Part shown: piece after piece, positions 829-18,686 of the stretch
Layout: every line of letters begins with the position of its first letter
Position numbering within the stretch: position 1 is the first letter of the stretch
From: Paracoccaceae bacterium
GTDB taxonomy: Bacteria; Pseudomonadota; Alphaproteobacteria; Rhodobacterales; Rhodobacteraceae
Length of the DNA stretch: 64,000 nt
Assembly: GCA_017510335.1 (NCBI GenBank)
Contig: JAFWNM010000043.1
Location: 1 to 64,000, forward strand
Direction of reading: 5' to 3'
Notes under the pieces: generated by a model
Databases searched by the model: none
Seen by the model: only the letters and a program-made list of their open reading frames with translations
Told to the model about the DNA's origin: nothing
Made by a program: the position numbers and the translations under genes

Positions 829-1092
829 TCATGCCCCCTGATTGTCGAGTTGGGCGCGCACCGACAGGCGCCCGCGTCTAGAGATGTAGTAAGGACTGCC
901 GGATCGGGATTCGACCAGTCGCTTGCGCCGCAACCGGATGAACGTTTCCAGAGAGAATTCGGACAGGATCATCCCCTCGCGGGTCACGCAGGTGACAGCC
1001 GTGATTTTCCGGCGGTCATCGCGCGCATGCAGGATGTGACCCCCAAGAGCCAGAACGTGCAGCGCACGTTGTTCGTTTCGTGAAATATTCAT
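829..1092 (-). CDS. TopAI/YjhX-family toxin (UPF0386)
   Basis: The 87-residue product begins MNISRNEQRALHVLALGG and contains VTCVTREGMILSEFS and a C-terminal VRAQLDNQGA, all hallmarks of the YjhX/UPF0386 family (E. coli YjhX is 85 aa). TopAI is reported to bind DNA topoisomerase I and block its activity. I chose the ATG at 1092 because it matches the family N-terminus; an ATG 66 bases upstream would add residues with no family resemblance and would cross towards the palindrome at 1161-1183. The full family length is present, so the toxin should be intact. The GNAT gene follows immediately. Confidence 0.88.
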   Translation of the reverse strand: MNISRNEQRALHVLALGGHILHARDDRRKITAVTCVTREGMILSEFSLETFIRLRRKRLVESRSGSPYYISRRGRLSVRAQLDNQGA

Positions 1093-1154
1093 TGAAGTCT
1101 CGTGTGCAAGTGTGAAGCAATGCTCAGGCGCATACACGCCCGAAAACTTTCGTT

Positions 1155-1556
1155 TCACGAGGCTCTCTGATCTTCAGAGAGCCTTATCACACAAGCTCTG
1201 ACATCCAGTCTCCGTTGTCCGAAAGACGGTCTCTGCCGTCCCTCTGCCCGAAAGATATATACTGTCCGGACGAAACGCAACCGGCGTAAATGCCGCAGCA
1301 TCAGCGACATTCGATAGGAAAAAATGCTGCGCCATGCACGAGTGGCCGGTTGGGTGAAGCCGCGTTGCAGGATGCCTGCCACGACGACCGGCAGCGCGGC
1401 CAGTTCCTCTGCGACGCGCGCCTGCTCGGCCCGGCTGTAGTCGACCACCGGCGGGCAGGCGCTGGGCACCGTGTCAGAAGTCCCCCCTGCGCAGGCGGTC
1501 AAGAAGATCGTCGCGGCTGCGAGGGCGGCGGGCGGCCGCATCCAGCACATGAGCAT
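1155..1556 (-). pseudogene. Broken phage spanin (Rz1-like) lipoprotein gene
   Basis: The first 60 or so codons (about 1370-1556) encode a lipoprotein signal with lipobox LTAC at residue 22, then ACPPVVDYSRAEQARVAEE and LAALP, a pattern I associate with small Rz1-like spanin lipoproteins in alphaproteobacterial prophages. From about position 1370 downstream the reading frame turns into unrelated basic sequence and stops at 1155, so the original C-terminus has been lost. Its start lies exactly at the end of the neighbouring IS remnant, which may also have removed upstream phage genes. No other phage gene is visible here. The family call is from memory and moderately sure. Confidence 0.5.
1161..1183. 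promoter_or_regulatory. Palindrome upstream of the toxin gene, possible operator
   Basis: GGCTCTCTGA (1161-1170) and TCAGAGAGCC (1174-1183) are perfect 10-bp inverted repeats with a 3-nt centre, 68 bp upstream of the topAI-like start. Toxin-antitoxin operons are often autoregulated through such dyads. A terminator from the upstream direction is the alternative, but no T-run follows on the minus strand. Confidence 0.45.
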
Positions 1557-2449: not shown

Positions 2450-2566
2450 ACCAATAATTTTAATAACATCCCCGGTGTAACCCTGTCAGAGATTGTTCAT
2501 CCCCGCGATCCATTCCTGAAGGCCTGTGTATCTGTTGACCTTGAGGTTGACCCGAAAGTTGCGCGC
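2450..2566 (+). other. In-frame upstream extension carrying exonuclease motif I of the helicase gene
   Basis: Reading the helicase frame upstream from the GTG at 2567 it stays open back to a TAG at 2447. The codons just before the GTG give KACVSVDLEVDPKVAR, and DLEVD is the Exo I motif (DxE) expected of a DEDD exonuclease. Between 2450 and 2566 there is no ATG, GTG or TTG in frame. Either the gene uses a rare start such as CTG or ATT, or a frameshift or truncation has removed the true start. Confidence 0.65.
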
Positions 2567-5500
2567 GTGTTTGAACTGGCTGCGGTCTGCGGTGACGGGG
2601 CTGATGTCATTCGCGGCAAGGGCGTTGGTGTCGCGTCGGCGCTTGATCGGCTGGAGGCAGCGCTGGGGGATGCGCGGCATCTGATCGGTCACAATATTCT
2701 GCGTCACGACTTGCCGCATCTGGCGGCGCTTCGTCCCCGGCTGGCGCAGCTTGCGCAGGCACCTATCGACACGCTCTGGCTCAATCCACTCGCTTTTCCG
2801 CGCAACCCTTACCACCATCTGGTCAAGCACTACCACGACGGGCGGTTGCTGTCGGGCCATGTCAATGACCCGGAAGCGGATGCACGGCTTGTCTTTGATG
2901 TTCTCAGCAATCAGATTGCGGCCTTTCGCGCGCTACAGGGGCAGTCGCCCGATGCCCTCGCCGCTTATCACTATCTTACATCGCGCGGAGAACATGATCA
3001 GGGCTTCGCGGCAGTATTTCACTACATTCGCGGCGCTGATGTGCCATCCCCCGATCAGGCGCGGCAAGCCGTTGGGCGATTGCTCGACGGGCAGGCTTGC
3101 GCGCCTGCGCTTACAAGCGTTCTTGACGAGATCGCGTCGCCATTGCTGGGGTGGCCGCTTGCCTATGCCCTGTCATGGATAACGGTTGCGGGTGGCGATT
3201 CCGTCATGCCACCTTGGGTGCGGATGCAGTTCCCGGGTGCCGCGGGCATGGTGAAGCGTCTGCGCGATACGTCCTGCGACACCCCTACATGCGCATGGTG
3301 CCGCGAGAAGGGCGACCCGGTCAAAGCGTTGTCGCGGTGGTTCGGCTTTGATGCCTTTCGCCCTGTCCCTACGGATGCTGACGGGCGCCCCTTGCAGGAA
3401 CGCATCGTCGATGAAGGAATGCGCGGGCACAGCCTGCTTGGCATTTTGCCCACGGGCACGGGGAAATCCGTCTGCTACCAAATCCCGGCGCTGGCCAAGT
3501 TCGACCGGACCGGCGCGCTGAGTGTTGTCATCTCGCCGCTGGTGGCCCTGATGGCTGACCAGGTGGCGGGGATGGAGCGGTCGGGTATTTCTTCGGCTGT
3601 CACAGTCAACGGGATGCTCTCATTGCCCGAGCGGCAGGATGCGCTGGACAAGGTGCGTATGGGCGAGGCGGCGATGCTGCTGATCTCGCCCGAGCAGTTG
3701 CGCAGCGTCGGTGTGCGGTCCGTTCTGGCGCAGCACGAGATTGGCCTTTGGGTGCTGGACGAGGCGCATTGCGTCTCGAAATGGGGGCATGATTTCAGGC
3801 CCGATTATCGCTACATCGCGCGGTTCATTCGCGAAACAGCAGGCGATGGCGATCCCGCCCCGGTGATCTGTCTGACCGCGACCGCAAAGCCCGAGGTTGT
3901 GCGCGACATTCGCGACCATTTCCAGAGCCGGTTGGGAATGAACCTCCTGTTGCTTGATGGGGGTGCCTCGCGGACGAATCTGAGCTTTGAGGTGCGCGCA
4001 ACCGGGAAGCGCACCAAACTGGCCGATATCCTCGATGTCATAGAACAGCGCCTGCCGCCAGATGGTGTGTCCGGTGCCGTCGTCTATTGCGCGACACGCA
4101 AGGCGACTGAGGATGTGGCGCAATTCCTCCAACAGCAGGGCTTGTCTGCGGAACGCTATCACGCAGGGCTGACGCCGGATGAGAAGAAGACCATTCAGGA
4201 ACGGTTCCGGATCGGCGCGTTGCGGGTCATCGCGGCGACCAATGCGTTCGGGATGGGGATCGACAAGCCGGATATCCGGCTTGTGGTGCATGGCGATATT
4301 CCCGGCTCGCTTGAAAACTACCTGCAAGAGGCAGGGCGCGCGGGTCGCGACCGGGATCATGCCAATTGCGTGCTTCTGTTTGCGGCCGATGATGTTGAAC
4401 GCCAGTTCCAGCTTTCGGCGCGCTCGCGTCTTGCCCGGCATGAGATAGGCGCCATCCTGAAGGCGGTGCGGCGCATGGATGTGAGGTCGCGCAGCACCGG
4501 CACTGTGGTTGCGACTGCCGGTGAAATCGTGCGTAATGAGCAGGACCGGGAGTTTCAGCGCGAAAGCGCCACCGATGACACGCGGGTCAAGACTGCGCTG
4601 TCCTGGCTGGAAGAAGCGAAGCTGCTGACGCGCGAGGAGAACCGTGTGCAGGTTTTCCCGTCCTCGCTGCGGGTGCGCAGCATTGAGGATGCGCAAGCCT
4701 TGCTGGACAAGGCGCAGATCACGGGTGCGCGGCGCACAGAGTTGATGGATATCGTCCGTCACCTGATCAATGCGTCGCCCGATGAGGGCATCTCCACGGA
4801 TGAGTTGACCGGGATCAGCGGGTTGACTGGTGGGCAATTAACCAAGGCGCTGGCAGATCTCGAAGCTTTGGGAATTGCGCGCAATGACACTGCCGTAACT
4901 GTGTTTGTGCATAATTCTGTGCAGGACAGTTCTGTCAATCGGTTGGGGCAGGCCACGCGGCTTGAAAGCGACCTGATTGCCCTGATGCGCGAAGAAGCGC
5001 CCGATGCCGACGATCACGCAAGCACACCGTTGAACCTGCAACTGGCCAGCGCGAGGCTGCGCGACGGCGGGCACAGCCATGTGCGCCCCGATCTGGTCGA
5101 GAAGCTTTTGCGCGGCATAGCGCGCGATGGCCGTGATCTTGATGGTGGCAAGGGCAATCTTCGCCTGCGCAAACTCTCGCGGCATACGCTCTCGGTGGCG
5201 CTGCAACGGTCATGGCGGGTGGTCGAGCAATCCGCCGCGCTGCGCCAGCAAGCAGGCGAAGCGTTGCTCTCGCATCTTCTGGGGCGTTTGGAGAAAGGTC
5301 AGCGCGGCAAGGATTTGCAGGTTGAAACCACACTGGGCGACCTGCTCGCCAGCCTTTCAGGCGATGCGTTCCTGCGCGGACAGGTCAGGGAAATGACGCG
5401 GCTGATGGACCGCGCGCTTATGTGGCTGCACGAGCAGGACGTGGTGACGCTGGGCAAGGGGCTGACCGTGTTCCGGCCTGCAATGACCGTGCAGCTTGCC

Positions 5501-7588
5501 CCCGGAAAGGGGCAGTTTCTGGTCAAGGACTTTGCGCCTTTGCAGGATCATTATGACGAACAGACTGTGCAGACCCATGTCATGGCCACCTATGCCGAAA
5601 CAGGGCTTGCGTCGATGCGTGACGCGATGCGTCTGTCAGAGGATTATTTCGCGCTGGATCAAGACGCCTTCATGGGCCGCTGGATGAAGGGCAAAACCAC
5701 CGAGGTCAAACGCCAGACAACTGGCAAATCATGGGCCGCTGTTGTCGACGCGCTTGGCAATCCGGTTCAGCAAAAGATCGTCGCGGATGACCGCGATGCG
5801 ACCAATGTGCTTGTTCTGGCGGGGCCGGGTTCGGGCAAGACGCGGGTGCTTGTGCATCGTATCGCGTATCTGATCCGGGTGCGCCGCGAGGATCCGCGCA
5901 GCATTCTGGTGCTCAGCTATAACCGTCATGCCGCTGTCGAAATCCGGGCGCGCCTCCGGCATCTTGTCGGGGACGAGGCTTACGGCGTTACAGTGTCCAC
6001 CTGCCATGCGCTGGCCATGCGGCTTGTGGGGGCAAGTTTCGCCGGGTCGCAGGCCGAAAGCCGCGACTTCGACAATGTTGTCATGGAAGCGGTGCGCCAG
6101 TTGAACGGCGAGGGCCTGAGCAAGACCGAGGCCGAAGCCCAGCGCGATACGCTGATCCAGGGTTATCGGTGGATTCTGGTTGATGAGTATCAGGATGTGG
6201 GCGCACAGGAATACGCGCTGATCGCGGCAGTGGCAGGGCGGACGCTAGAGGACGAAGACTTGCGCCTGAGCCTTTTTGCGGTGGGCGATGACGATCAGAA
6301 CATCTATGCGTTTTCCGGGGCGTCGATCCGCTACATCCGTCAGTTCGAGCAGGACTACAAGGCAAAGCCGGAATATCTGGTCGAGAATTACCGCTCCACC
6401 AAGTCCATCATCGAGGCGTCGAACACAGTGATTTCCGGCGCGCGTGACCGGATGAAGCGGGGCCATGACATCACCATCGACCGCAAGCGGCGCAATGAGC
6501 CGGCAGGCGGGGTCATGGCAAAGCGCGACCCAGTGGGGCAGGGGCGTGTGCAGCTGCTGCATTGCCCGCCAGGAGATCGGGCGCAGGCTGTGGCCGCAAT
6601 CGGTGAATTGCAACGCCTGAGCGCGCTGGAAGAGGGTTGGAACTGGTCGCGTACTGCAATCATCGCGCGTAACTGGCGCCAGCTTGCGCCCGCGCGCGCC
6701 TATGCTGAAGCGCAGGGCATCCCGGTCGAGATGGCCAATGAAAGTTTGCCGAGCCTGTGGCGCATGCGCGAGATGCGATGCTTTATCGAGGCGATTTCGC
6801 GTGACCGCACACGCTTGCTGAATGTGCCCGATCTGCTGGGGATTGCGAACACCCTGCCGCGCAACCGCTGGTCCGATCTTGTTGCCGAGGGCATTGCCGC
6901 GCTGGCACAAGAGGTGGGTGCAGGCGCAGTATCGGTCCCCGATCTGATTGAGTGGTTCGGAGAATGGGCGCGCGATGCACGGGGCGAGCAGCGCGGGCTA
7001 CTGCTGATGACGGCCCACCGCGCCAAGGGTCTTGAATTCGATGATGTGGTGATCCTGAATGGCGGATGGGACCACCCGTCAGGTAACGAGGATGCCGACG
7101 CACCCAGGCGGTTGTTTTATGTCGCGATGACCCGCGCCCGCCGTAGCCTTGCTGTGATGACGCAAGGGGCTCATGCCTTTGTTCCGTCCAAGGGGGACAA
7201 TATTCTGCGGCGCGACGCTGCCCTGCCGGACAAGCATGACCTGCCGCCAGAGCGTTACTATATCCAGCCCGAGCTGGGGCAGGTGTTCATTGACTGGGCT
7301 GGACGTTTGCCTGCGCACGACCGCAGTATCAAGGCGATCGAGCAAGCGCAGGTCGGTGCCCCTGTGACCATGGCGCAGATGCACAGGCGCTGGTTTGTGA
7401 CGGACAGTCAGGGGCGGCGATTGACGGCGATGCGCGCTGACTGGGCTGTGCCGCCGGGACGACGGATCGTCTCTGCCCGGGTCGGGGCAATTGTGACGCG
7501 CCATTCGCATGAGAGTGGTGAGGAACATCGGACAAAGCTCAACCGTGAGGCTTGGGAAGTGCTTCTGCCCGAGATTGTGCTGGAGTGA
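2567..7588 (+). CDS. DEDD exonuclease - RecQ - UvrD fusion helicase
   Basis: This 1673-residue protein, counted from the GTG at 2567, joins three enzymes. Residues 1 to about 115 are the rest of a DEDD 3'-5' exonuclease (GHNILRHDLPHL; HVNDPEADARLVFD). A small Cys cluster follows (CDTPTCAWC). From about 290 comes a RecQ-type helicase with Walker A LPTGTGKS, DEAH in VLDEAHCVSKWGHDFRPDY near 395, and ENYLQEAGRAGRDR near 580. From about 1080 comes a UvrD/Rep-type superfamily 1 helicase: LAGPGSGKTRVLVHRI, VDEYQDVG near 1203, GDDDQNIYAFSG and VAMTRARR near 1515. Such fusions are annotated as RecQ-family ATP-dependent helicases and probably process or repair DNA ends; a defence role is possible given the island setting. 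Starting at 2567 would drop exonuclease motif I, so the 5' end is unresolved. Confidence 0.85.
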   Translation: MFELAAVCGDGADVIRGKGVGVASALDRLEAALGDARHLIGHNILRHDLPHLAALRPRLAQLAQAPIDTLWLNPLAFPRNPYHHLVKHYHDGRLLSGHVNDPEADARLVFDVLSNQIAAFRALQGQSPDALAAYHYLTSRGEHDQGFAAVFHYIRGADVPSPDQARQAVGRLLDGQACAPALTSVLDEIASPLLGWPLAYALSWITVAGGDSVMPPWVRMQFPGAAGMVKRLRDTSCDTPTCAWCREKGDPVKALSRWFGFDAFRPVPTDADGRPLQERIVDEGMRGHSLLGILPTGTGKSVCYQIPALAKFDRTGALSVVISPLVALMADQVAGMERSGISSAVTVNGMLSLPERQDALDKVRMGEAAMLLISPEQLRSVGVRSVLAQHEIGLWVLDEAHCVSKWGHDFRPDYRYIARFIRETAGDGDPAPVICLTATAKPEVVRDIRDHFQSRLGMNLLLLDGGASRTNLSFEVRATGKRTKLADILDVIEQRLPPDGVSGAVVYCATRKATEDVAQFLQQQGLSAERYHAGLTPDEKKTIQERFRIGALRVIAATNAFGMGIDKPDIRLVVHGDIPGSLENYLQEAGRAGRDRDHANCVLLFAADDVERQFQLSARSRLARHEIGAILKAVRRMDVRSRSTGTVVATAGEIVRNEQDREFQRESATDDTRVKTALSWLEEAKLLTREENRVQVFPSSLRVRSIEDAQALLDKAQITGARRTELMDIVRHLINASPDEGISTDELTGISGLTGGQLTKALADLEALGIARNDTAVTVFVHNSVQDSSVNRLGQATRLESDLIALMREEAPDADDHASTPLNLQLASARLRDGGHSHVRPDLVEKLLRGIARDGRDLDGGKGNLRLRKLSRHTLSVALQRSWRVVEQSAALRQQAGEALLSHLLGRLEKGQRGKDLQVETTLGDLLASLSGDAFLRGQVREMTRLMDRALMWLHEQDVVTLGKGLTVFRPAMTVQLAPGKGQFLVKDFAPLQDHYDEQTVQTHVMATYAETGLASMRDAMRLSEDYFALDQDAFMGRWMKGKTTEVKRQTTGKSWAAVVDALGNPVQQKIVADDRDATNVLVLAGPGSGKTRVLVHRIAYLIRVRREDPRSILVLSYNRHAAVEIRARLRHLVGDEAYGVTVSTCHALAMRLVGASFAGSQAESRDFDNVVMEAVRQLNGEGLSKTEAEAQRDTLIQGYRWILVDEYQDVGAQEYALIAAVAGRTLEDEDLRLSLFAVGDDDQNIYAFSGASIRYIRQFEQDYKAKPEYLVENYRSTKSIIEASNTVISGARDRMKRGHDITIDRKRRNEPAGGVMAKRDPVGQGRVQLLHCPPGDRAQAVAAIGELQRLSALEEGWNWSRTAIIARNWRQLAPARAYAEAQGIPVEMANESLPSLWRMREMRCFIEAISRDRTRLLNVPDLLGIANTLPRNRWSDLVAEGIAALAQEVGAGAVSVPDLIEWFGEWARDARGEQRGLLLMTAHRAKGLEFDDVVILNGGWDHPSGNEDADAPRRLFYVAMTRARRSLAVMTQGAHAFVPSKGDNILRRDAALPDKHDLPPERYYIQPELGQVFIDWAGRLPAHDRSIKAIEQAQVGAPVTMAQMHRRWFVTDSQGRRLTAMRADWAVPPGRRIVSARVGAIVTRHSHESGEEHRTKLNREAWEVLLPEIVLE

Positions 7589-8405: not shown

Positions 8406-9338
8406 TCAGCTATCGGTTTGCAGGTCACTGGACGCGTTTAGATTGTCGCACAGCATGCTGATAAATCGCTCTGACGCGGGCGATAATGTGCGCCCTCGGC
8501 GCGTAATCACGGCGGCCGGGCGCGTGACCACCGGCTCCACCAGTGGCCGCCAGACAAGGCCGGGGTCACGCACGGCGCGCGCCAGATGTTCAGGGAAAAT
8601 GCACATTCCCATGCCACATGATGCCAGCCACGACGCACTGTAAAGAAACCCGATTTCATTTGCGACCCGCAGCTTTCCACCCACATCTTGCAAGGTGCGT
8701 TCGACCAGATCGCGCACACCATAGTCGCGCCGGGATACGATAAGTGGTTCGTCACTCAGGGCTTTCCATGGGACATGATCGCGCTGTGCCAGCGGATGGT
8801 CGCGCGGGCATACCAGAAACAGCGGGTCGTCATGCAAGATGATGCGGTCGAATTCGGTCATATCCGCAGGGGGGGTGCCAATTCCGAAATCGGCCTTTTC
8901 TTCGCGGATAATGGAATAGAACTGGTTGGGCGCGCAATCATCCAGAACAAGCCTGACGGCCGGATAGGCCGCGCGAAACCCGCGCACCGTTTCGGGCAAC
9001 AATGCGATGCCGGTTGCAGGCGTGGCCGCTACGCGGATCTGGCCGCGCTCCAGCCCGTCCAGATCACTGATGACGGACCCCAGCGTTTCAAGATCACCCA
9101 ACATACGCTCCACAATTCCGATGATCTGCTCGACGGCGGGGGTGGGGGCAAGGGACCGGGTTGTGCGGTCAAACAACCGTGTGCCAAGCGCTGATTCAGC
9201 CTGACTTAACAGCACGCTGACGGCGGACTGGGTTACGTTCATCCGCTCGGCGGCAACGGCAATACGCCGGCTTGCATAAACCGCTGACACCGCGCGAAGC
9301 TGTCGAAGGGTCAGATGATGGACAGCCATTTTATTCAT
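8406..9338 (-). CDS. LysR-family regulator of the TAXI-TRAP locus
   Basis: A 310-residue LysR-type regulator with a winged helix at about residues 8-67 (LTLRQLRAVSAVYASRRI, MNVTQSAVSVLLSQAESAL) and a full-length co-inducer domain. It is divergent from the TAXI solute-binding gene, with a 120-bp AT-rich intergenic region, so it probably controls that transporter and the amidohydrolase behind it, with the transported compound or a product as co-inducer. Starts at 9338 or 9329 are both possible; AAGG lies 2 or 11 bases upstream respectively, and neither is decisive. Confidence 0.85.
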   Translation of the reverse strand: MNKMAVHHLTLRQLRAVSAVYASRRIAVAAERMNVTQSAVSVLLSQAESALGTRLFDRTTRSLAPTPAVEQIIGIVERMLGDLETLGSVISDLDGLERGQIRVAATPATGIALLPETVRGFRAAYPAVRLVLDDCAPNQFYSIIREEKADFGIGTPPADMTEFDRIILHDDPLFLVCPRDHPLAQRDHVPWKALSDEPLIVSRRDYGVRDLVERTLQDVGGKLRVANEIGFLYSASWLASCGMGMCIFPEHLARAVRDPGLVWRPLVEPVVTRPAAVITRRGRTLSPASERFISMLCDNLNASSDLQTDS

Positions 9339-9458
9339 AACCTTATCTAATTAATTAATATGAATATTTCATAACACTGCACGATAAATGCGTATAGTCT
9401 GAATCTGCGGGATGCACCGGAGGAGGGGGCACCCCACGCATCGCACAGGGAGGACAAC
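9339..9458. promoter_or_regulatory. Divergent promoter region with TTCATAAC direct repeats
   Basis: This is the most AT-rich stretch of the neighbourhood. TTCATAAC occurs twice, at 9334-9341 (overlapping the LysR start) and at 9368-9375, flanking a TTAATTAATTAG-like tract. Such sites fit LysR binding and two back-to-back promoters. The downstream gene has a clear ribosome-binding site, AGGGAGGA, before 9459. Confidence 0.4.
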
Positions 9459-10451
9459 ATGATCGGACGCATTCTGGCCGTGGGGCTGGCGTTTGCTGCC
9501 GCCACTGGACTTGGCACAACCGCGCAAGCACAGCGCATCACTATCGGAACCAACCCTCAAGGCACGCTATACTATACTGTCGGCAGCGGGATAGCGGCTG
9601 CGCTGCAGGAAAATCTGGGCCGTCAGGCAACTGTCCAGCCGTTTACCGGGTCATCCGTCTATATTCCCCTGATTGCCGAGGATGAGGTCACGCTTGGCCT
9701 GAATTCGTCCATCGATGTCGGGGGCTGGTATCGGGGTGAATTCGAGAATGAACCCTATACGCAACTGCGCGTTCTGGCGCGGCTTTGGCCCCTGCGGCAG
9801 GCGTTCATGGTGCGCGCGGACACAGGCATGCAGGACGTGTCCGATCTGGCGGGCAAGCGCGTGGTCACCACAGTGTCGGGGCAGGCCGCGACAGGCAGGG
9901 TGAATCAGGCCGTGCTGCAAGCCGGCGGTGTCGCGCTGGATCAGGTTGAACATGTGACGATTTCAGGCATGCCCGCAGGGGTTGATGGGCTGGTCGAAGG
10001 CAACCTGGATGCGCATGGCATCGCAGTCGGGATTCCGCTGACACAACAGGCACATGCCACCATTCCCGGCGGTATTCGTTATGTGTCAATCACAGGGCCG
10101 GATGCGACCGACGAATTCATCGGGGACATCTATCCCGGTGTGTATCTGTTGCAGGTGGACCCGTCGCCGCGCCTGCCAGAGGTGACAGAGCCGGTTGTCG
10201 TTGCTGCATATGATGTGTTCCTGACAGCCAGTGCCAACCTGCCTGATGACCAGGTTCAGGCCATTCTTGGCGCGCTTTATGATGCGCTTCCGCAACTGGT
10301 TAGCGACTATCCCGCAATGGGGGGCGCGCAGCAAGACCTGATGACAAGCCCCACCAACACCATTCCCTTCCATTCCGCAGCGGTGGAATTCTACCGCGAG
10401 AAAGGGATCTGGTCGGACGAGAACGCACAGCGCGACGCGTCCATCGACTGA
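9459..10451 (+). CDS. TAXI-family TRAP transporter solute-binding protein
   Basis: This 330-residue periplasmic protein has a signal peptide ending at AQA (about residue 24) and the TAXI-family pattern ITIGTNPQGTLYYTVGSGIA, where the ligand is first contacted. TAXI proteins deliver substrates to fused TRAP permeases, and such a permease follows at 10687. The 235 bp in between contain a dispersed repeat, which may change the ratio of binding protein to permease. The substrate is unknown; the amidohydrolase at the operon end suggests an aromatic or other carboxylated compound. Confidence 0.9.
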   Translation: MIGRILAVGLAFAAATGLGTTAQAQRITIGTNPQGTLYYTVGSGIAAALQENLGRQATVQPFTGSSVYIPLIAEDEVTLGLNSSIDVGGWYRGEFENEPYTQLRVLARLWPLRQAFMVRADTGMQDVSDLAGKRVVTTVSGQAATGRVNQAVLQAGGVALDQVEHVTISGMPAGVDGLVEGNLDAHGIAVGIPLTQQAHATIPGGIRYVSITGPDATDEFIGDIYPGVYLLQVDPSPRLPEVTEPVVVAAYDVFLTASANLPDDQVQAILGALYDALPQLVSDYPAMGGAQQDLMTSPTNTIPFHSAAVEFYREKGIWSDENAQRDASID

Positions 10452-10565
10452 CGCGCCGTGCGCGTGGGAACCCCCAATTTGGCGGGTTTCCACACCATCT
10501 TGTGGTCCTGCCCTTCTGGTCACCGATGAAAGCGGCATGGCGCTGCTTGTGTGGCCATGCCTGAA

Positions 10566-10672
10566 CTAGAGCATGTTGCTCAAAACTGGGCGCCGGTTTT
10601 TAGCTTGTCGAACATACAAAATCAATAAGTTAGAGCATGTCGCGTGAACACGAATGAATGCGCCATGCTCTT
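10566..10672. repeat. Dispersed intergenic repeat, long copy 1
   Basis: The first half (10566-10617) reads TAGAGCATGTTGCTCAAAAC and goes on through CCGGTTTT and GCTTGTCGAACAT; it matches copies near 46.2 and 52.4 kb. The second half (about 10600-10672) matches the copy near 37.2 kb and carries inverted ends AGAGCATG (10632-10639) and CATGCTCT (10664-10671). It lies between the binding-protein and permease genes of one operon. Confidence 0.75.
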
Positions 10673-10686
10673 GAACCCGAAAGCCC

Positions 10687-12588
10687 ATGCTCATGAAGCC
10701 TGTCTATGCTGCTGCCGCAATTCCGGTAATCGGCCTGTTGTGGTTGCTTGATGTTCCGCGCAGGTTGGGTTTTGTCGTACTGACAGAACAGTATCTTGCG
10801 GTCATTCTTGGCGTTACGGTCTGCGTGGCCATTGTTCTGCGCCCCATGCGGGGATGGCTGCGCTGGCCTGATCTGGCGCTGGGGGTGCTGGGCTGTGCCG
10901 GCTGGGTCTGGCTTGCCTGGAACTATGAGGCATGGCTGCTGAGCGCCACCAGCCGCGGGCCGGAAAAATGGGTGCCCGCCCTGATTGCGATTGTCGCCAC
11001 AGTGGAGGCCACACGCCGCCATTGCGGGGGCGTTCTGGCCGCGCTTGCCCTTGGGTTTACCGCCTACGGGTTCTGGGGCTGGATGGCGCCGGGCCTGTTC
11101 GAGGGGGCCTATCTGCGGCCCGCGCGGTATTTGCTGTATCTGTATAACGACACGAACGGCATTCCCGGCCTTGTTCTGAATGTGGGGGCCACGCAAATTC
11201 TGGGCTTCATCATTTTCGGGGCCGTGCTGAACGCTGTTGGCGGCAGTCAGGCCCTGACCGGGCTGGCGCTGGCCACAATGGGCCACCGGCGTGGTGGACC
11301 GGCGAAGGTGGCAATTTTGTCGTCATCACTGTTTGGCACATTGTCAGGGTCCACCGTGGCCAATGTCATGTCCACCGGCACTGTCACAATTCCGATGATG
11401 AAAAAGGCAGGCTTTCCCGCGCGCCATGCCGCCGCAATTGAAGCGGTGGCGTCAAATGGCGGTCAGATCGCGCCGCCCGTGATGGGGGCCACGGCGTTTG
11501 TCATCGCTGAATTTCTGCAAGTCGCTTATGTTGATGTGATCACGGCCGCGCTGCTGCCTGCTGCGTTCTATTATTACCTGCTTTATCGTCAGGTGGACCG
11601 CTATGCCGCCGCGAACGGTATTGCTGGCGAACCGCGTGAAAACCTGCCGAAGCTGCACAGCGCTGTGTTGGGGGCGTGGCCACTATTGGCGCCGCTGGGG
11701 GTGTTGGTGTGGTTTCTATTCGTTCTGGGCTATTCGCCCGGCAAGGCCGCGCTTTACAGTGCGGGGGCCGCTGTGGCGTTATATCTGGTCACCGCGCCGC
11801 GCGGGGCGTCGCGCCTTGCGCTGCTGGGGCAGGCGCTGGTCAATAGCGGGTCAATGCTGGTCCCTGTGCTGCTGGTATGTGCTGTGGCAGGCATTATTGT
11901 GGGCACAATCAATGTCACGGGTCTGGGTTTTGCGCTGACATTGGCGTTGGGGCGCATCGCGGAACTGGGCGGGTTGCCCGCGCTTTTGCTGATGACCGCG
12001 CTGCTGTCAATCATTCTGGGCGTGGGCATGCCCACAACAGGGGTCTATGTCATTGTTTCGGTGCTGCTGGCCCCGGCGCTGGTGCGTTTTGGCGTAACCG
12101 AAATGTCCGCGCATCTGTTCATCTTCTATTTCGGGCTGCTTTCTATGCTGACGCCGCCTGTGGCGATTGCGTCCTATGCGGCGGCCAGTGTGGCGGGGTC
12201 CGACATGTGGTCCACGGGGATAACCGGGATCAAGCTGGCGCTCATGGCCTATCTGCTGCCCTTCGTGTTTGCGATGAACCCCGCATTGCTGATGGACGGC
12301 ACCTGGATCGAAATTTCGGTGTCCTGCCTGACCATATTGGTTGCCGGTCATTTGCTGGCAGAAGTGCTGGCCAACAAGAACGCCTATGGCGGTGCTTGGC
12401 AGCGTCGCGCAGTGGCCGTTCTGGCGCTGGGCATAGGTGCGCTGACCACATTCTTTCCGCCCGAGTCCTTCATTGTCCTGACATTGGCACTGCTTGCGGT
12501 GCCGGTGGCTTGGGCACTTTCGCGCCGGTTCGGCGCCCCACTTCCCGCGCCGGTGGCGCGGGCGCAAACGGAGCCTTCGAATGACTGA
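10687..12588 (+). CDS. TRAP transporter fused permease (small plus large subunit)
   Basis: A 633-residue membrane protein with hydrophobic segments along its whole length. It combines a small DctQ-like N-terminal part with a DctM-like large permease (PF06808-type). The core signature LGVGMPTTGVYVIVSVLLAP lies in the second half, and ATQILGFIIFGAVLN and GSTVANVMSTGTV belong to the first inverted repeat. Fused permeases of this kind pair with TAXI binding proteins and use a sodium or proton gradient. The ribosome-binding site is weak; ATGs at 10687 and 10693 are both possible. It overlaps the next gene by 8 bases. Confidence 0.9.
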   Translation: MLMKPVYAAAAIPVIGLLWLLDVPRRLGFVVLTEQYLAVILGVTVCVAIVLRPMRGWLRWPDLALGVLGCAGWVWLAWNYEAWLLSATSRGPEKWVPALIAIVATVEATRRHCGGVLAALALGFTAYGFWGWMAPGLFEGAYLRPARYLLYLYNDTNGIPGLVLNVGATQILGFIIFGAVLNAVGGSQALTGLALATMGHRRGGPAKVAILSSSLFGTLSGSTVANVMSTGTVTIPMMKKAGFPARHAAAIEAVASNGGQIAPPVMGATAFVIAEFLQVAYVDVITAALLPAAFYYYLLYRQVDRYAAANGIAGEPRENLPKLHSAVLGAWPLLAPLGVLVWFLFVLGYSPGKAALYSAGAAVALYLVTAPRGASRLALLGQALVNSGSMLVPVLLVCAVAGIIVGTINVTGLGFALTLALGRIAELGGLPALLLMTALLSIILGVGMPTTGVYVIVSVLLAPALVRFGVTEMSAHLFIFYFGLLSMLTPPVAIASYAAASVAGSDMWSTGITGIKLALMAYLLPFVFAMNPALLMDGTWIEISVSCLTILVAGHLLAEVLANKNAYGGAWQRRAVAVLALGIGALTTFFPPESFIVLTLALLAVPVAWALSRRFGAPLPAPVARAQTEPSND

Positions 12589-14408: not shown

Positions 14409-15424
14409 GCAGGCTGCACCGTCACGGCAATCAGGTCATGATCGGAAATCGCCTGCCCGCCGGTATCAGTGGCGGCCAGGGTCGCGGGGGCGGTGCCCTG
14501 CACCCCTCGCCCCAGAAACCAGTCATACCGCGCGGTGTTTTGTTGTCGGGCGTTCGTCACGCGGCTTATGCGGCTGGTAGGCCCCGGCGCGTTCAGCGTA
14601 TTCCAGTGATAGCCTTGGCGAAGGGCCTCGGAAAACAGCGGGTCGGTCAGGGTGTCGCGCGCGCCATCGCCTGCGCCCGCGTTCAGATCCCCGCCTATCA
14701 GCACCGGATCGCCTGCGGCAAAACGGTCCAGCCGGTCCAGCAGATAGGCCAGTTGCGCAGCCCGCCCCGCACCGTCAGTGTCGCTTTCCAGATGCACGGC
14801 ACAGACCACCAGCGCGTCTGCCCCCTGTCCGAACCGTGCGGCCAGCGCCATGCGCCCGCCCAGCCGCCGCTGCCCGCGACGGGGCGCGATGAACCAGTCC
14901 GCCATATCCGGCAGGCGGATCAGCACGACCTCTCTCGGGGGGGTGCGTGCCGTAATGGCATTGCAGTGCCAGCCCAGATCGTTTTCGGGGGCGTTGCGAA
15001 GCTCCAGAAATTCGGGCGCATAGATTGCCCCGTGACCCTGCGCCGCCGCCAGTTCGGCCACTGTGTCGCGCTGCCCGGTGCGGCCCATGCCGATATCCAG
15101 TTCGGTCAGCAAGGTGACATCCAGCGCCGCGCCGCGCAGCAGTGCCGCACTGTCGGGGCCGAAATGGCATTGCTGCACGTTCCATGCGCCCACGCGCAGC
15201 GCGCGGGCGGGGGGGGCTTGGGGGGTGGGGAACGGGTGCAGACCGATCTGGCGCAGCGCGGGCACGCGCCCCTCGGCTAGGTGGCGCAACCGTGCCGTGG
15301 GGGTTGCCGGTTCAGCCAGACGGGCGCGGCAATCGCGCGGCACGGGTGTCAGGCCGGGCACGGGGGGCGTGGGGGCGTTCAACTGCGGTTCAGATATGCG
15401 GGAAAAGGGGCGCTGGCGCGTCAT
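14405..15424 (-). CDS. Endonuclease/exonuclease/phosphatase (EEP) family protein
   Basis: A 339-residue cytoplasmic member of the EEP superfamily. It shows VGAWNVQQCHF (the Asn of the metal site), LLTELDIGMGRTG with the metal-binding Glu, VVCAVHLESD, LIGGDLNAGAGDG (catalytic Asp-Leu-Asn) and AISDHDLIAV with the catalytic SDH. All active-site motifs are therefore present. The ATG overlaps the tctA stop as ATGA, so translation is coupled to the transporter. Family members hydrolyse nucleic acids, sphingomyelin, inositol phosphates or other phosphoesters; I cannot say which applies here. Confidence 0.82.
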   Translation of the reverse strand: MTRQRPFSRISEPQLNAPTPPVPGLTPVPRDCRARLAEPATPTARLRHLAEGRVPALRQIGLHPFPTPQAPPARALRVGAWNVQQCHFGPDSAALLRGAALDVTLLTELDIGMGRTGQRDTVAELAAAQGHGAIYAPEFLELRNAPENDLGWHCNAITARTPPREVVLIRLPDMADWFIAPRRGQRRLGGRMALAARFGQGADALVVCAVHLESDTDGAGRAAQLAYLLDRLDRFAAGDPVLIGGDLNAGAGDGARDTLTDPLFSEALRQGYHWNTLNAPGPTSRISRVTNARQQNTARYDWFLGRGVQGTAPATLAATDTGGQAISDHDLIAVTVQPA

Positions 15425-16920
15425 CTGCGCCCCCTTGCGGCCAGCGTGGCCAGCGCCATTACCGCCACCATGCCCAGCACAATCGGGCTGTATAAAAAGA
15501 CCAGATGATCCCCCTGCGCCAGCTTCACTGCCAGCCGGTAGTTGTCTTCCAGCATCGGCCCCAGAATTAGCCCCAGAACCAGCGGCGCGATTGGGTATTC
15601 CGCGCGGCGCAGCCAGTAGCCCACGACCCCCAGTGCCAGCGCGACAGCCATATTGTACCCCGCCTTGATCGGGGCCTGCCCGTCCACCGCGAAGGTGCCG
15701 ACGCAGGACAGGATCAGAACACAGGGGATCAGGAACGACAGCGGCACCCGCAACAGCAGCGGAAACAGCCGCACGCCCAGCAACTGGAACACGAACATTG
15801 CCATAAGCGCCGCACCCATGCCAAGGAAGATCGCATAGACCAGCGGCATGTCATTGGCAAACAGCGCCGCGCCGGGAACCACGCCCTTAATCATCAGCGC
15901 GCCCAGAAGCACGGCGGTTACAGCGTCGCCCGGAATGCCCAGCGACAGAACCGGGATCAGCGCGCCGCCGGTCACGGCGTTATTCGCGGCCTCGGGGGCA
16001 ATGACGCCCTCAATCCGCCCTTCGCCCACGGCCGGTTCGCCATCAACGGGGCGAGAGGTCTTGCGCGCCCGCTCATGTGCCAGAAAGACCGCGACGCTGG
16101 CCCCGGCCCCCGGGATTGCCCCGATCAGCGTGCCGATGCCGGTGGATTCCAGAAATACCCGCCACATGCTGCGCAGCCGTGCCCATGACGGAAAGACATT
16201 GCCGATACGCGCGACAGGTTCTGCGCCAGCCGTATTGCGCAACCGCGCCAGATCCAGCAGCGCCTGTGAAATCCCGAAAAGACCGATAAGCGCGGGAATA
16301 AGCTCGATCCCGTTGTGAAACGGCGTGCTTGCCAGCGTGTCGGCAAAGGGCAGGCGCGCCGCATTGGTGAACGGGTCCGATCCCAGCAGCGACAGGCACA
16401 CCCCTAGCGCGCCCATGGCGATGCCGCGCAGCAGGTTTCCTTCGGACATGGCTGCGATGATCAGCAGGCCAAGGGCGGCAATGGCGAATTTCTCCGTCGC
16501 ACCAAAGGCCAGCGTCGCCGCCGCCAGATAGGGCGCGAACAAGATCAGCACCATCAGACTTAGCACCCCGCCCACCAGTGACGCCACCGCCGCCGACCCC
16601 AGTGCCAACCCCGCCTGTCCGGCGCGGGTCATGGCATGGCCATCGCGCACTGTGGCCAGCGCGTTGGGATTGCCCGGAATGCCCAACAAAATAGCCGGTA
16701 TCGACGCCCCCGCGACTGCGCCCGTATAGACCGACAGCAGCATCGCCATGCCAGTGGCCGTGGGCAGGTAGAAGCTGACCGGAAGCATCAGCGCCACGCC
16801 CATTGTGGCCGTCAGCCCCGGAAGCGCGCCCAGCACAATGCCAAGAATACTGCCAAGGGCGATCCAGAACAGGGTTTCAAACGTGGCAATCATCGCCACA
16901 CCCGCCAGAAGATCATCCAT
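15421..16920 (-). CDS. tctA: Tripartite tricarboxylate transporter large permease TctA
   Basis: The 499-residue membrane protein is full length for TctA and carries the conserved glycine-rich segments LGIVLGALPGLTATMGVAL near the N-terminus and LGIPGDAVTAVLLGALMIKG in the second half, with about 12 predicted membrane spans. TctA is the transport channel that works with TctB and a periplasmic TctC protein, using ion-coupled uptake. It lies 12 bp after tctB. Substrates of this family include citrate and other di- or tricarboxylates, but many orthologues carry unrelated acids. Confidence 0.93.
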   Translation of the reverse strand: MDDLLAGVAMIATFETLFWIALGSILGIVLGALPGLTATMGVALMLPVSFYLPTATGMAMLLSVYTGAVAGASIPAILLGIPGNPNALATVRDGHAMTRAGQAGLALGSAAVASLVGGVLSLMVLILFAPYLAAATLAFGATEKFAIAALGLLIIAAMSEGNLLRGIAMGALGVCLSLLGSDPFTNAARLPFADTLASTPFHNGIELIPALIGLFGISQALLDLARLRNTAGAEPVARIGNVFPSWARLRSMWRVFLESTGIGTLIGAIPGAGASVAVFLAHERARKTSRPVDGEPAVGEGRIEGVIAPEAANNAVTGGALIPVLSLGIPGDAVTAVLLGALMIKGVVPGAALFANDMPLVYAIFLGMGAALMAMFVFQLLGVRLFPLLLRVPLSFLIPCVLILSCVGTFAVDGQAPIKAGYNMAVALALGVVGYWLRRAEYPIAPLVLGLILGPMLEDNYRLAVKLAQGDHLVFLYSPIVLGMVAVMALATLAARGRR

Positions 16921-16932
16921 CGCGTGCGTCCC

Positions 16933-17634
16933 TCACCAATTCAGAATGCCGGGCGGCAACTGGATCAGGAACAGTTGCCGGAACATCAGATAAATTGCGA
17001 AGGTCGTGCCGATAGCCACCTGAACTGCCGCCACATGGGGCAGGTGCCGCCAGCGTCGGCAGATCCACACCATCAGACCCAGTGTTCCCACAACGATCAG
17101 GGTTGCCAGTCCAGTTTGCACCGCCGGTTCGCGCAGTATGGGCAGGCCATGGGTCCGCGCCAGCGCAAAACAGGTGCGGATCACCCAGCGCAGGGCTGAA
17201 AACACCGCGACCGACCCCGCCACCACCGCTGCCACAGCGCCCAGAAAGGGCCACAGCCGAAATGGCTGGCCCATATGTCGCTGGTTCAGCGCGATCAGCC
17301 CGAACAGCACCAATGCGGTGCTTAGCACAAAGCCCAAGGGGCGAAACGCGATCAGATAGAGGATCAGGATCGCAACATGCGCCAAGACTGGCCCCGTTTG
17401 AACTGGCCCCGCCAGCCCTGACACCGGACGCGCAGGCCAGCGGCGCACCACATCGCCCAGCAGCGCCGCAGCCAGCACGACCCCCGCCGCCACCGGCAGG
17501 AACCGGCTGCCCGGATCATAGCCGAAGCGGTCACCGATCATCCCCTCGGATGGCAGGGTCCAGGCATAGCCCAGCCAGATCAGTGCAAACCCGATCAGGC
17601 CCAAAGGGACCAGAAGGGCAAGATCATTGCGCAT
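16933..17634 (-). CDS. tctB: Tripartite tricarboxylate transporter small permease TctB
   Basis: A 233-residue hydrophobic protein of the TctB family, somewhat longer than the usual 150-190 residues. It has LVPLGLIGFALIWLGYAW as first membrane span, the GDRFGYDPGSRFLPVAAG loop and several further spans. Two adjacent ATG codons are available; AGGAGG at 17641-17646 lies 6 bases before the second (17634), which I chose, and 3 bases before the first (17637). It is separated from tctC by 83 bp that contain a very stable hairpin. Confidence 0.85.
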   Translation of the reverse strand: MRNDLALLVPLGLIGFALIWLGYAWTLPSEGMIGDRFGYDPGSRFLPVAAGVVLAAALLGDVVRRWPARPVSGLAGPVQTGPVLAHVAILILYLIAFRPLGFVLSTALVLFGLIALNQRHMGQPFRLWPFLGAVAAVVAGSVAVFSALRWVIRTCFALARTHGLPILREPAVQTGLATLIVVGTLGLMVWICRRWRHLPHVAAVQVAIGTTFAIYLMFRQLFLIQLPPGILNW

Positions 17635-17650
17635 CATGAACCTCCTGTAG

Positions 17651-17677
17651 CGGGCCGGGGGCAAGCGCCCCGGCCCG
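17651..17677 (-). promoter_or_regulatory. Stable intercistronic hairpin between tctC and tctB
   Basis: CGGGCCGGGG (17651-17660) and CCCCGGCCCG (17668-17677) form a perfect 10-bp GC stem with a 7-nt loop. There is no T-run. Its position after the binding-protein gene suggests it protects the tctC message or attenuates transcription, so that the binding protein is made in excess over the permease. This role is inferred. Confidence 0.6.
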
Positions 17678-17717
17678 GCGTGGTGTTGTTCCAGATGTGG
17701 CGGTCAACGGCCAACGC

Positions 17718-18686
17718 CTATTGTGCATACAGGCCCGAGGCCCGCACAATCGGTTCATATCCTGTGACCAGATCATCGAAATACGCCTGCGCATCTTCCA
17801 GCGTTGCAAAAGTCGAGATGATGCCCTGTTCGGCCATGAAGCTTTGGTAGCTGGCAGAATCGTAGGCGGCAGCAAAGGCCGCTGCAATCGCTTCGCGCGC
17901 CGCATCGGGTGTGCCCTGACGCACTGCGATTGACCGGAACGACCCACCGGGCACGTCCAGCGCGTCGAAACCGGCCTCAACCAGGTTTGGCACATCAGAC
18001 AGGCCGTCCAGCAGGCTGCGATCTTCGGTCAGAATGACCAGCGGACGGAAATCATCGGGGTTGGTCAGGATTTCCGATTGCGAGAAGATGCCCGCATCGC
18101 AGCGCCCGCCCAGAACATCGGTCCGCAGGTTCTGGCCGCCATCAAAGGGCGTGACGTTGAAAATGCCGTCAAACGCAAGGTCGATCGCAATCGAGGCAAC
18201 GCCGGTCGCGCCGCCCATGCCCGCATTGCCCAGACAGATCGTGCCCGGCGCGGCCTGCGCGGCGTCAATCAGGTCGGCCATTGACTCGATCTTGCTGTCG
18301 GCCAGCACGGCCACGATGAACGGGTCCCAGTTCAGCGCAACAATCTGGTCAAGTTCGCGGTAGCCATCGGTCAGGCCTTGCATGGTGGCCGCAATAGTGT
18401 GGGTGCCCGATACCAGCACAGCATAGCCGTCAGCAGGCATGTTCAACACTTCATTGGTGCCCGCAGCACTGCCAGCGCCGCCGATATTGCTGATCTGGAT
18501 GCGCACCGCCAAGTGGTTGCGCAGTTCCTCGATCAGGGGCCGCACGGCGGAATCCGTGCCGCCGCCTGCCGCGTAAGGCACAACAACGGTCAGGACAAGT
18601 TCTTCGTTCGGCCATTCCTGTGCCTGTGCGGGCAGGCTTGCGGCAGCAAGCAGCAGGGCAGGGGCGAGAGCGTCGAGATATTTCAT
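17718..18686 (-). CDS. tctC: Tripartite tricarboxylate transporter binding protein TctC (Bug family)
   Basis: The 322-residue precursor begins MKYLDALAPALLLAAAS, with signal cleavage after AQA at residue 22, followed by LTVVVPYAAGGGTDSAVRPL, the usual Bug-family start that lines the ligand pocket. I chose the ATG at 18686 because GGAG lies 8 bases upstream and the signal peptide begins there; the open frame runs 28 codons further. It is the first gene of the tctCBA-EEP-DUF1868 operon. The ligand is probably a carboxylic acid but cannot be named. Confidence 0.92.
   Translation of the reverse strand: MKYLDALAPALLLAAASLPAQAQEWPNEELVLTVVVPYAAGGGTDSAVRPLIEELRNHLAVRIQISNIGGAGSAAGTNEVLNMPADGYAVLVSGTHTIAATMQGLTDGYRELDQIVALNWDPFIVAVLADSKIESMADLIDAAQAAPGTICLGNAGMGGATGVASIAIDLAFDGIFNVTPFDGGQNLRTDVLGGRCDAGIFSQSEILTNPDDFRPLVILTEDRSLLDGLSDVPNLVEAGFDALDVPGGSFRSIAVRQGTPDAAREAIAAAFAAAYDSASYQSFMAEQGIISTFATLEDAQAYFDDLVTGYEPIVRASGLYAQ

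Follow-up and report, generated by a model that had tools for sequence, protein, structure and literature searches.

A probable CTG start codon for an exonuclease-RecQ-UvrD fusion gene in a clade of Rhodobacterales

Where does translation begin in a large gene whose first catalytic motif is encoded ahead of every usual start codon? This question was raised by an open frame at positions 2450–7588 of a 64,000-nucleotide stretch of Paracoccaceae bacterium DNA (assembly GCA_017510335.1, contig JAFWNM010000043.1, positions 1 to 64,000), hereafter called the window; all features of the gene given below lie on its forward strand. A first-pass annotation had described there an exonuclease remnant fused to RecQ and UvrD helicases, and had regarded the gene as either just damaged at its 5' end or translated from a rare start. 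A frame scan bore out its account of the frame, which runs uninterrupted from a TAG at 2447–2449 to the stop codon at 7586–7588 and contains no ATG, GTG, or TTG before the GTG at 2567–2569; exonuclease motif I (VDLEVD, D-x-E) is indeed encoded upstream of that GTG, its exact coordinates being 2534–2551, and initiation at the GTG would lose it. On balance, the open frame, Pfam matches, motifs, clade comparison, and tree favour an intact gene (2483–7588) that encodes a single-chain, 1701-amino-acid DNA end-processing enzyme of DEDD exonuclease-RecQ-UvrD order, with the CTG start at 2483–2485 and the function both being proposals of this study.

In a tree of 80 aligned rows, from which six short rows and L004 had been excluded, 13 distinct rows (the window, L001, L002, L003, L006, L014, L021, L028, L029, L031, L033, L042, and L068) fell together with L005 into one clade with a support of 99 in the SH-like approximate likelihood ratio test (SH-aLRT), and the neighbour of this clade, L036, has ATG codons. 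Left out of the 13-row counts were L004, which is near-identical to L001, and L005, in which an insertion before the motif makes the start ambiguous, together with exact duplicates, loci that fall short of motif I (L039, L048/L070, L050, and L119), and the partial L045, L046, and L053. A CTG was found 51 nucleotides before motif I in 13 of the 13 rows, and 10 of these, the window included, were devoid of any ATG, GTG, or TTG from the in-frame stop to the motif, a recurrence that goes beyond chance. Among the 16 codons between the CTG and motif I, 14 vary in three to seven forms, with the codons neighbouring the CTG changing their amino acid; the other two are another invariant CTG, located at -18, and a codon for Cys that has two forms. 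One-base length differences sit directly upstream of the CTG, a stop codon stands two codons upstream of it in L014, L021, and L068, and no open reading frame (ORF) in an alternative frame overlapping the start was common to all clade rows.

Between the CTG and motif I, the pairwise differences at the three codon positions amounted to 0.27/0.15/0.43 in all 13 rows and to 0.17/0.08/0.34 in a subset of nine whose alignment is free of large gaps, and the same nine rows gave a flat 0.27/0.25/0.23 just upstream of the CTG. Over the 16 codons that follow it (-48..0), synonymous divergence (dS) exceeded nonsynonymous divergence (dN) in 69 of 74 valid pairs; frame-shifted controls, with too few pairs to judge, did so in 3 of 10 and 2 of 15. 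Because the median dS over -48..+78 reached 1.14 (72 valid pairs), a CTG codon under no constraint beyond its amino acid would be expected to show silent changes, and invariant CTG was observed in 6 of the 100 all-Leu columns of the clade gene, the proposed start included. The codon is preceded at a spacing of 5 nucleotides by a Shine-Dalgarno-like GGTG (2474–2477). Of the 13 clade rows, 12 have GGTG within -10..-4, a feature shared by 4% of the 1034 in-gene CTG codons compared. As judged from the coding signature, the protein conservation, and the invariant codon, coding in this Rhodobacterales clade sets in at CTG 2483, and translation very probably starts there.

Among the 87 distinct loci that reach motif I, 11 lack an ATG, GTG, or TTG from the stop to the motif, namely the window, nine of its clade relatives, and L017. 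Rows outside the clade carry such a codon 12–23 codons ahead of motif I in 71 of 72 cases (42 of them at exactly 14), and L017 is the sole exception. This locus (9950–10924 and upstream), which lies elsewhere in the tree, has TAG-CTG at the spot where its relatives have TTG and represents a second, separate case. The upstream part of the window gene, for which the first-pass annotation had advised an alignment with homologues, was found to be shared, the 5' region being common to relatives of nine named genera, and the usual starts outside the clade do not lie at the equivalent of GTG 2567. Damage to the 5' end was accordingly not supported, and the rare start gained support from the comparison and the invariant clade CTG.

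These data were weighed against other readings of the 5' end. If translation began at GTG 2567, a 1673-amino-acid protein without motif I would result and the stretch upstream would be untranslated; this is the first usual start codon of the frame, and L001 too has GTG at the aligned position, but the other 11 of the 13 rows have GTA, GTC, GTT, or ATC there, the codons upstream of it are under coding constraint, and motif I is encoded in every row of both homologue alignments described below, so that this reading appears very unlikely. Alternatively, the original start codon might have been lost, for example by insertion of a neighbouring transposable element, and the window might hold a decaying copy. 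A transposase remnant does lie just upstream on the opposite strand, and two clade relatives, L028 and L042, have disrupted frames; yet the start-less layout with the CTG and conserved upstream bases recurs in 13 distinct rows that include the nine named genera, and the 1701-codon frame is intact with all the sought motifs present, contrary to decay, which makes a lost start highly improbable. Finally, the ribosome might enter in another unconventional way, by frameshift from a short upstream ORF or at another rare codon such as CTG 2516 or ATT 2492. A 10-codon GTG ORF overlaps the start in another frame in six clade rows, and CTG 2516 is likewise invariant in the 13 rows; however, the short ORF is missing or different in the window, L001, L002, L014, L021, L033, and L068, ATT 2492 is not conserved, and the stretch -48..-18 upstream of CTG 2516 displays a coding signature of its own (0.31/0.16/0.46) with hardly any Shine-Dalgarno pairing ahead of that codon. 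Such an entry is therefore considered improbable.

Several observations nevertheless weigh against initiation at CTG 2483. The three clade rows that are not free of usual start codons (L001, L029, and L068) carry them only at a distance of at least 25 codons ahead of motif I (TTG or GTG) or at one of two codons (GTG); L001 and L029 have a TTG at 25 codons, and L001 and L068 have the near GTG. L001 also has GGTA instead of GGTG. The duplex energy is unremarkable and is matched by 17–49% of in-gene CTG codons, as calculated with a general anti-Shine-Dalgarno sequence rather than the host's own, and the 16S 3' end had no match in this assembly. When all 13 rows are set side by side gap-free, the upstream differences are 0.49/0.37/0.43 rather than flat, a figure that carries no frame meaning because of the indels there. 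In addition, the second CTG, at 2516 in the window, is as invariant as the first, L005 having CTT there; L005, with its insertion and two in-frame TTG codons, has an ambiguous and uncounted start, and keeps a CTG following GGAG farther upstream. L048/L070, which are one and the same stretch, match from query residue 37 only and look broken. A cautionary case is Caulobacter dnaA, for which PMC8443254 describes a CUG with a Shine-Dalgarno sequence that bound ribosomes in vitro (toeprint) and was unused in vivo, with a working AUG downstream. The clade differs in having no usual start between the CTG and the catalytic motif, the near GTG of L001 and L068 apart.

A precedent for the proposed start is the IncFIB rep gene, which has a CTG start; according to PMC11983097, a synonymous change to CTC abolished its function, most GenBank entries misplace its start to a GTG 14 codons downstream, and mutants were used to argue that the CTG sets low expression. 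The two genes are alike in the CTG and in a downstream GTG prone to misannotation, and differ in that IncFIB rep is a plasmid replication gene of E. coli whose start was proven experimentally, whereas the evidence here is comparative. CTG starts are considered very rare, being quoted in that article at 20 of nearly 85,000 annotated genes, and they are seldom gained, PMC5622118 counting AUG to CUG start switches at 2 of 61,358 ancestral AUG starts. CTG is fixed in the 13 clade rows, none of which has changed to ATG, GTG, or TTG at this position, and this suggests that weak initiation has been selected for.

The region that a start at the GTG would truncate bears the marks of a DEDD exonuclease. 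Motifs I (D-x-E), II (LIGHNILRHDLPHL, HN-x4-D; 2681–2722), and III (GHVNDPEADARLV, N-x4-D; 2855–2893) were kept across the 32 aligned homologues of alignment A1, and motif I was encoded without exception in A1 (32 rows) and in a wider set of 11 rows, which overlaps A1 in genes of three organisms. Pfam found no exonuclease family in the protein, and Foldseek alone gave no match for the exonuclease model at E <= 0.001; the predicted fold, with a predicted local distance difference test (pLDDT) score of 81, aligns structurally with DEDD exonucleases. With an RNase H-like fold and four acidic metal ligands in motifs I–III, the modelled domain belongs to the DEDD exonuclease superfamily. The DEDDh subclass is defined by a His five residues ahead of the last Asp (H-x4-D), and membership in it was rejected, since this position is occupied by Asn throughout, both in A1 (32 of 32) and in the wider set (11 of 11). 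With Asn standing where the catalytic His is usually found in all members examined, exonuclease activity cannot be taken for granted, which is a further point to be set against the proposed function. The first-pass description of exonuclease, RecQ, and UvrD parts in one frame is consistent with the Pfam helicases and the motifs, while the term remnant does not suit a domain with conserved motifs I–III and a DEDD fold.

Downstream of the exonuclease, a three-cysteine segment (CDTPTCAWC; 3260–3310), whose Cys residues are invariant throughout A1 (32 of 32 rows) and which has been lost in the Nostoc and Aliarcobacter members, precedes the RecQ helicase core (Pfam DEAD and Helicase_C; 3386–4351). 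This core was recognized by Pfam, family models, and a sequence match, and it matches RecQ cores by fold; its score for the RecQ subfamily TIGR00614 was 292.2 bits against a cut-off of 219.8. It was not assigned as a canonical bacterial RecQ, the TIGR01389 equivalog score being 344.1 of the 640.2 bits needed, and the RQC and HRDC families are missing from the Pfam list for the protein. The UvrD/PcrA-type superfamily 1 helicase (5759–7159) was recognized through UvrD-helicase (139.6 versus 23 bits) and UvrD_C (58 versus 25.6 bits), and the seven helicase motifs sought (RecQ I, II, and VI; UvrD I, II, III, and VI) were all present. For the region between the two motors, the predicted model had a pLDDT of 71 and a predicted template modelling score (pTM) of 0.44. 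RecQ and UvrD both translocate 3' to 5'. The two motors do belong to different superfamilies, as the first-pass annotation stated in calling them opposite families, but they do not form a pair of opposite polarity like that of RecBCD, in which the motors run in opposite directions.

The resemblance to known systems was partial in each case. Motor by motor, the protein is like the RecQ family (TIGR00614) and UvrD/PcrA/Rep, here fused in one chain with an exonuclease, and it did not reach the cut-offs of the full-length RecQ and UvrD equivalog models. Like WRN, it has a DEDD-fold 3'-5' exonuclease ahead of a RecQ helicase, and the RecQ cores match by sequence; unlike it, it possesses a UvrD motor and has neither RQC nor HRDC, both of which WRN contains, and WRN was matched by sequence at the RecQ end of the aligned segment but not in the exonuclease part. 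ExoDinG, or DinG of S. aureus, differs in that DinG represents another branch of superfamily 2 (SF2) than RecQ and in that there is no UvrD part. DpdF, GajB, and other defence helicases of PADLOC gave partial matches with one helicase domain each, and none of the best 25 of 81 PADLOC matches covered both motors. Membership in DpdF was rejected (192.6 versus an equivalog cut-off of 550 bits), and that in GajB or PsyrT was not adopted after searches of the defence library and family models. The fusion was not described in the titles or abstract openings turned up by literature searches.

By its sequence matches, the exonuclease-RecQ-UvrD fusion is broadly distributed. A scan of genome contigs gave 53 loci, almost all in Rhodobacterales, and the exonuclease part was found in 68 of 394 genomes drawn from the family, 42 of 292 from the order, and 16 of 349 from the phylum (E <= 0.001, a few weak matches being counted and the draws overlapping one another); the order draw also contained three congeners of the window genome, in which it was not found. 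Plasmids of several phyla carry the family: of the 873 matching plasmid records, 24 cover at least 80% of the query (the plasmid and draw queries start at 2516), among them records from Rhizobium, Cereibacter, Croceicoccus, Thiothrix, Allochromatium, Nostoc, and Bacteroides. The family is accessory, its uneven occurrence and its presence on plasmids suggest mobility, and the gene seems to have been repeatedly lost, with relatives in L028, L042, and L048/L070 having broken frames. All nine annotated records examined bear the label "RecQ family helicase". In L127, a Microvirga plasmid, the annotated start lies 468 nucleotides inside the matched region despite an in-frame ATG before motif I, and the public annotation thereby strips the exonuclease motif.

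DNA similarity between the window and L001 spans 2418 to the stop codon at 7588, so the unit that they share is the gene plus its immediate leader from just before TTGACC (2419–2424), a candidate -35 element common to most clade rows; a consensus scan found no promoter. Similarity to L004 runs from 2417 to the end of the L004 contig, and that to the partial relative L045 extends to 7714. On the opposite strand, an ORF at 1603–2469 with a short DDE_Tnp_1_5 match (residues 126–176), likely a transposon remnant, overlaps the leader. Farther upstream, a putative YjhX-type toxin gene (832–1158, reverse strand; Pfam E 2.7e-36) adjoins a GNAT acetyltransferase gene (330–827). The mobile island invoked by the first-pass annotation is weakly indicated at this locus, where the transposase remnant and the toxin gene speak for it and the unremarkable G+C content against it; the plasmids suggest mobility for the family.

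Defence genes near homologues, which the first-pass annotation had proposed to look for, were encountered in the form of a SauUSI-like restriction gene. In L006 (5891–9055), this neighbour carries PLDc_2, ResIII, Helicase_C, and DUF3427 domains, and its best PDB match was 7clg (SauUSI; 3.7e-87, residues 129–639), a match that stops short of the C-terminal part, where DUF3427 was matched; with its PLD nuclease and SF2 ATPase, the predicted product is SauUSI-like. The gene adjoins the helicase gene at 14 distinct loci (L002, L003, L006, L013, L014, L029, L031, L039, L041, L080, L082, L083/L138, L099, and L139), a lower bound on an uncertain total, since the 134 helicase-hit loci include duplicates, partial, and paralogous hits, many with a flank of about 1.4 kilobases (kb). 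It lies upstream and divergent at nine loci, upstream in tandem at L014, L083/L138, and L139, and downstream and convergent at L013 and L041; the match at L014 is limited to its C-terminal part, and at L039 the gene is in two pieces. Seven of the divergent loci have a small methyltransferase-like gene between the two, at 9062–9649 (reverse strand) in L006. In L021 the SauUSI-like gene stands 7.6 kb from the helicase gene, and L042 retains the methyltransferase-like gene alone. The restriction gene was present in 13 of 198 family genomes (E <= 1e-100). If about 7% of 4-Mb genomes carry one copy, we estimate that chance alone would bring the two genes together at far less than one locus; part of the adjacency is explained by shared islands and by a common origin of clade members. 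A helicase gene neighbouring the Nostoc homologue was ruled out as SauUSI-like, being a different gene. Elsewhere, type I restriction-modification genes (Allochromatium) and cas genes (Thiothrix) lie nearby, and two plasmid homologues (Bacteroides and Aliarcobacter) are near partition, SSB, or replication genes. Another nuclease-helicase context was seen in L007, with an RNase_H_2/AAA helicase-like protein and an AAA_27 protein (4197–7469 and 15077–18523), and L008 has homologues of both.

In the mechanism that we propose, initiator tRNA would start at the CTG behind the weak GGTG Shine-Dalgarno site, and the CTG may have been retained as it keeps the expression of a potentially harmful helicase-nuclease low, by analogy to IncFIB rep. 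The two 3'-to-5' motors on one chain would open the duplex at DNA ends, gaps, or restriction cuts, either following one another on a strand or working both strands from a gap or cut, and the DEDD-fold 3'-5' exonuclease would remove the 3' end fed by the motors. The host would benefit from the degradation of invading DNA, alone or after cutting by the restriction enzyme. The earlier idea that a nuclease with two motors could process DNA ends alone fits this predicted anatomy, and the protein probably has helicase-nuclease activity.

Whether this activity would serve defence is evenly balanced. The repair or anti-phage role put forward by the first-pass annotation is suggested by association, in that the restriction gene adjoins relatives, and is opposed by the lack of a match to that gene in the window's own genome at E <= 1e-100; moreover, the adjacency may reflect shared island residence only. 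It is possible, with less than even confidence, that an active enzyme translated from the CTG is instead engaged in plasmid or chromosome maintenance, such as replication-fork rescue or repair. WRN, an exonuclease-RecQ enzyme, works in repair, and the company of partition, SSB, or replication genes on the Bacteroides and Aliarcobacter plasmids would suit such a role, whereas the patchy presence (68 of 394 family genomes and none of three congeners), the recurrent type IV restriction-like neighbour, and the restriction-modification and cas genes nearby argue against it. PMC11981726 leaves the role of ExoDinG unsettled. The most specific proposal, a single-chain defence machine with the conserved CTG as an expression brake, an N-x4-D DEDD exonuclease, and two 3'-to-5' motors, acting as the DNA-destroying partner of SauUSI-like enzymes, is rather unlikely to hold in all its parts.

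Taken together, the gene most likely encodes an accessory enzyme that processes DNA ends, probably in the service of defence, and that would be expressed at a low level. Gene callers are commonly limited to three start codons. Those so limited would silently drop catalytic motif I from the window gene and from most of its clade.

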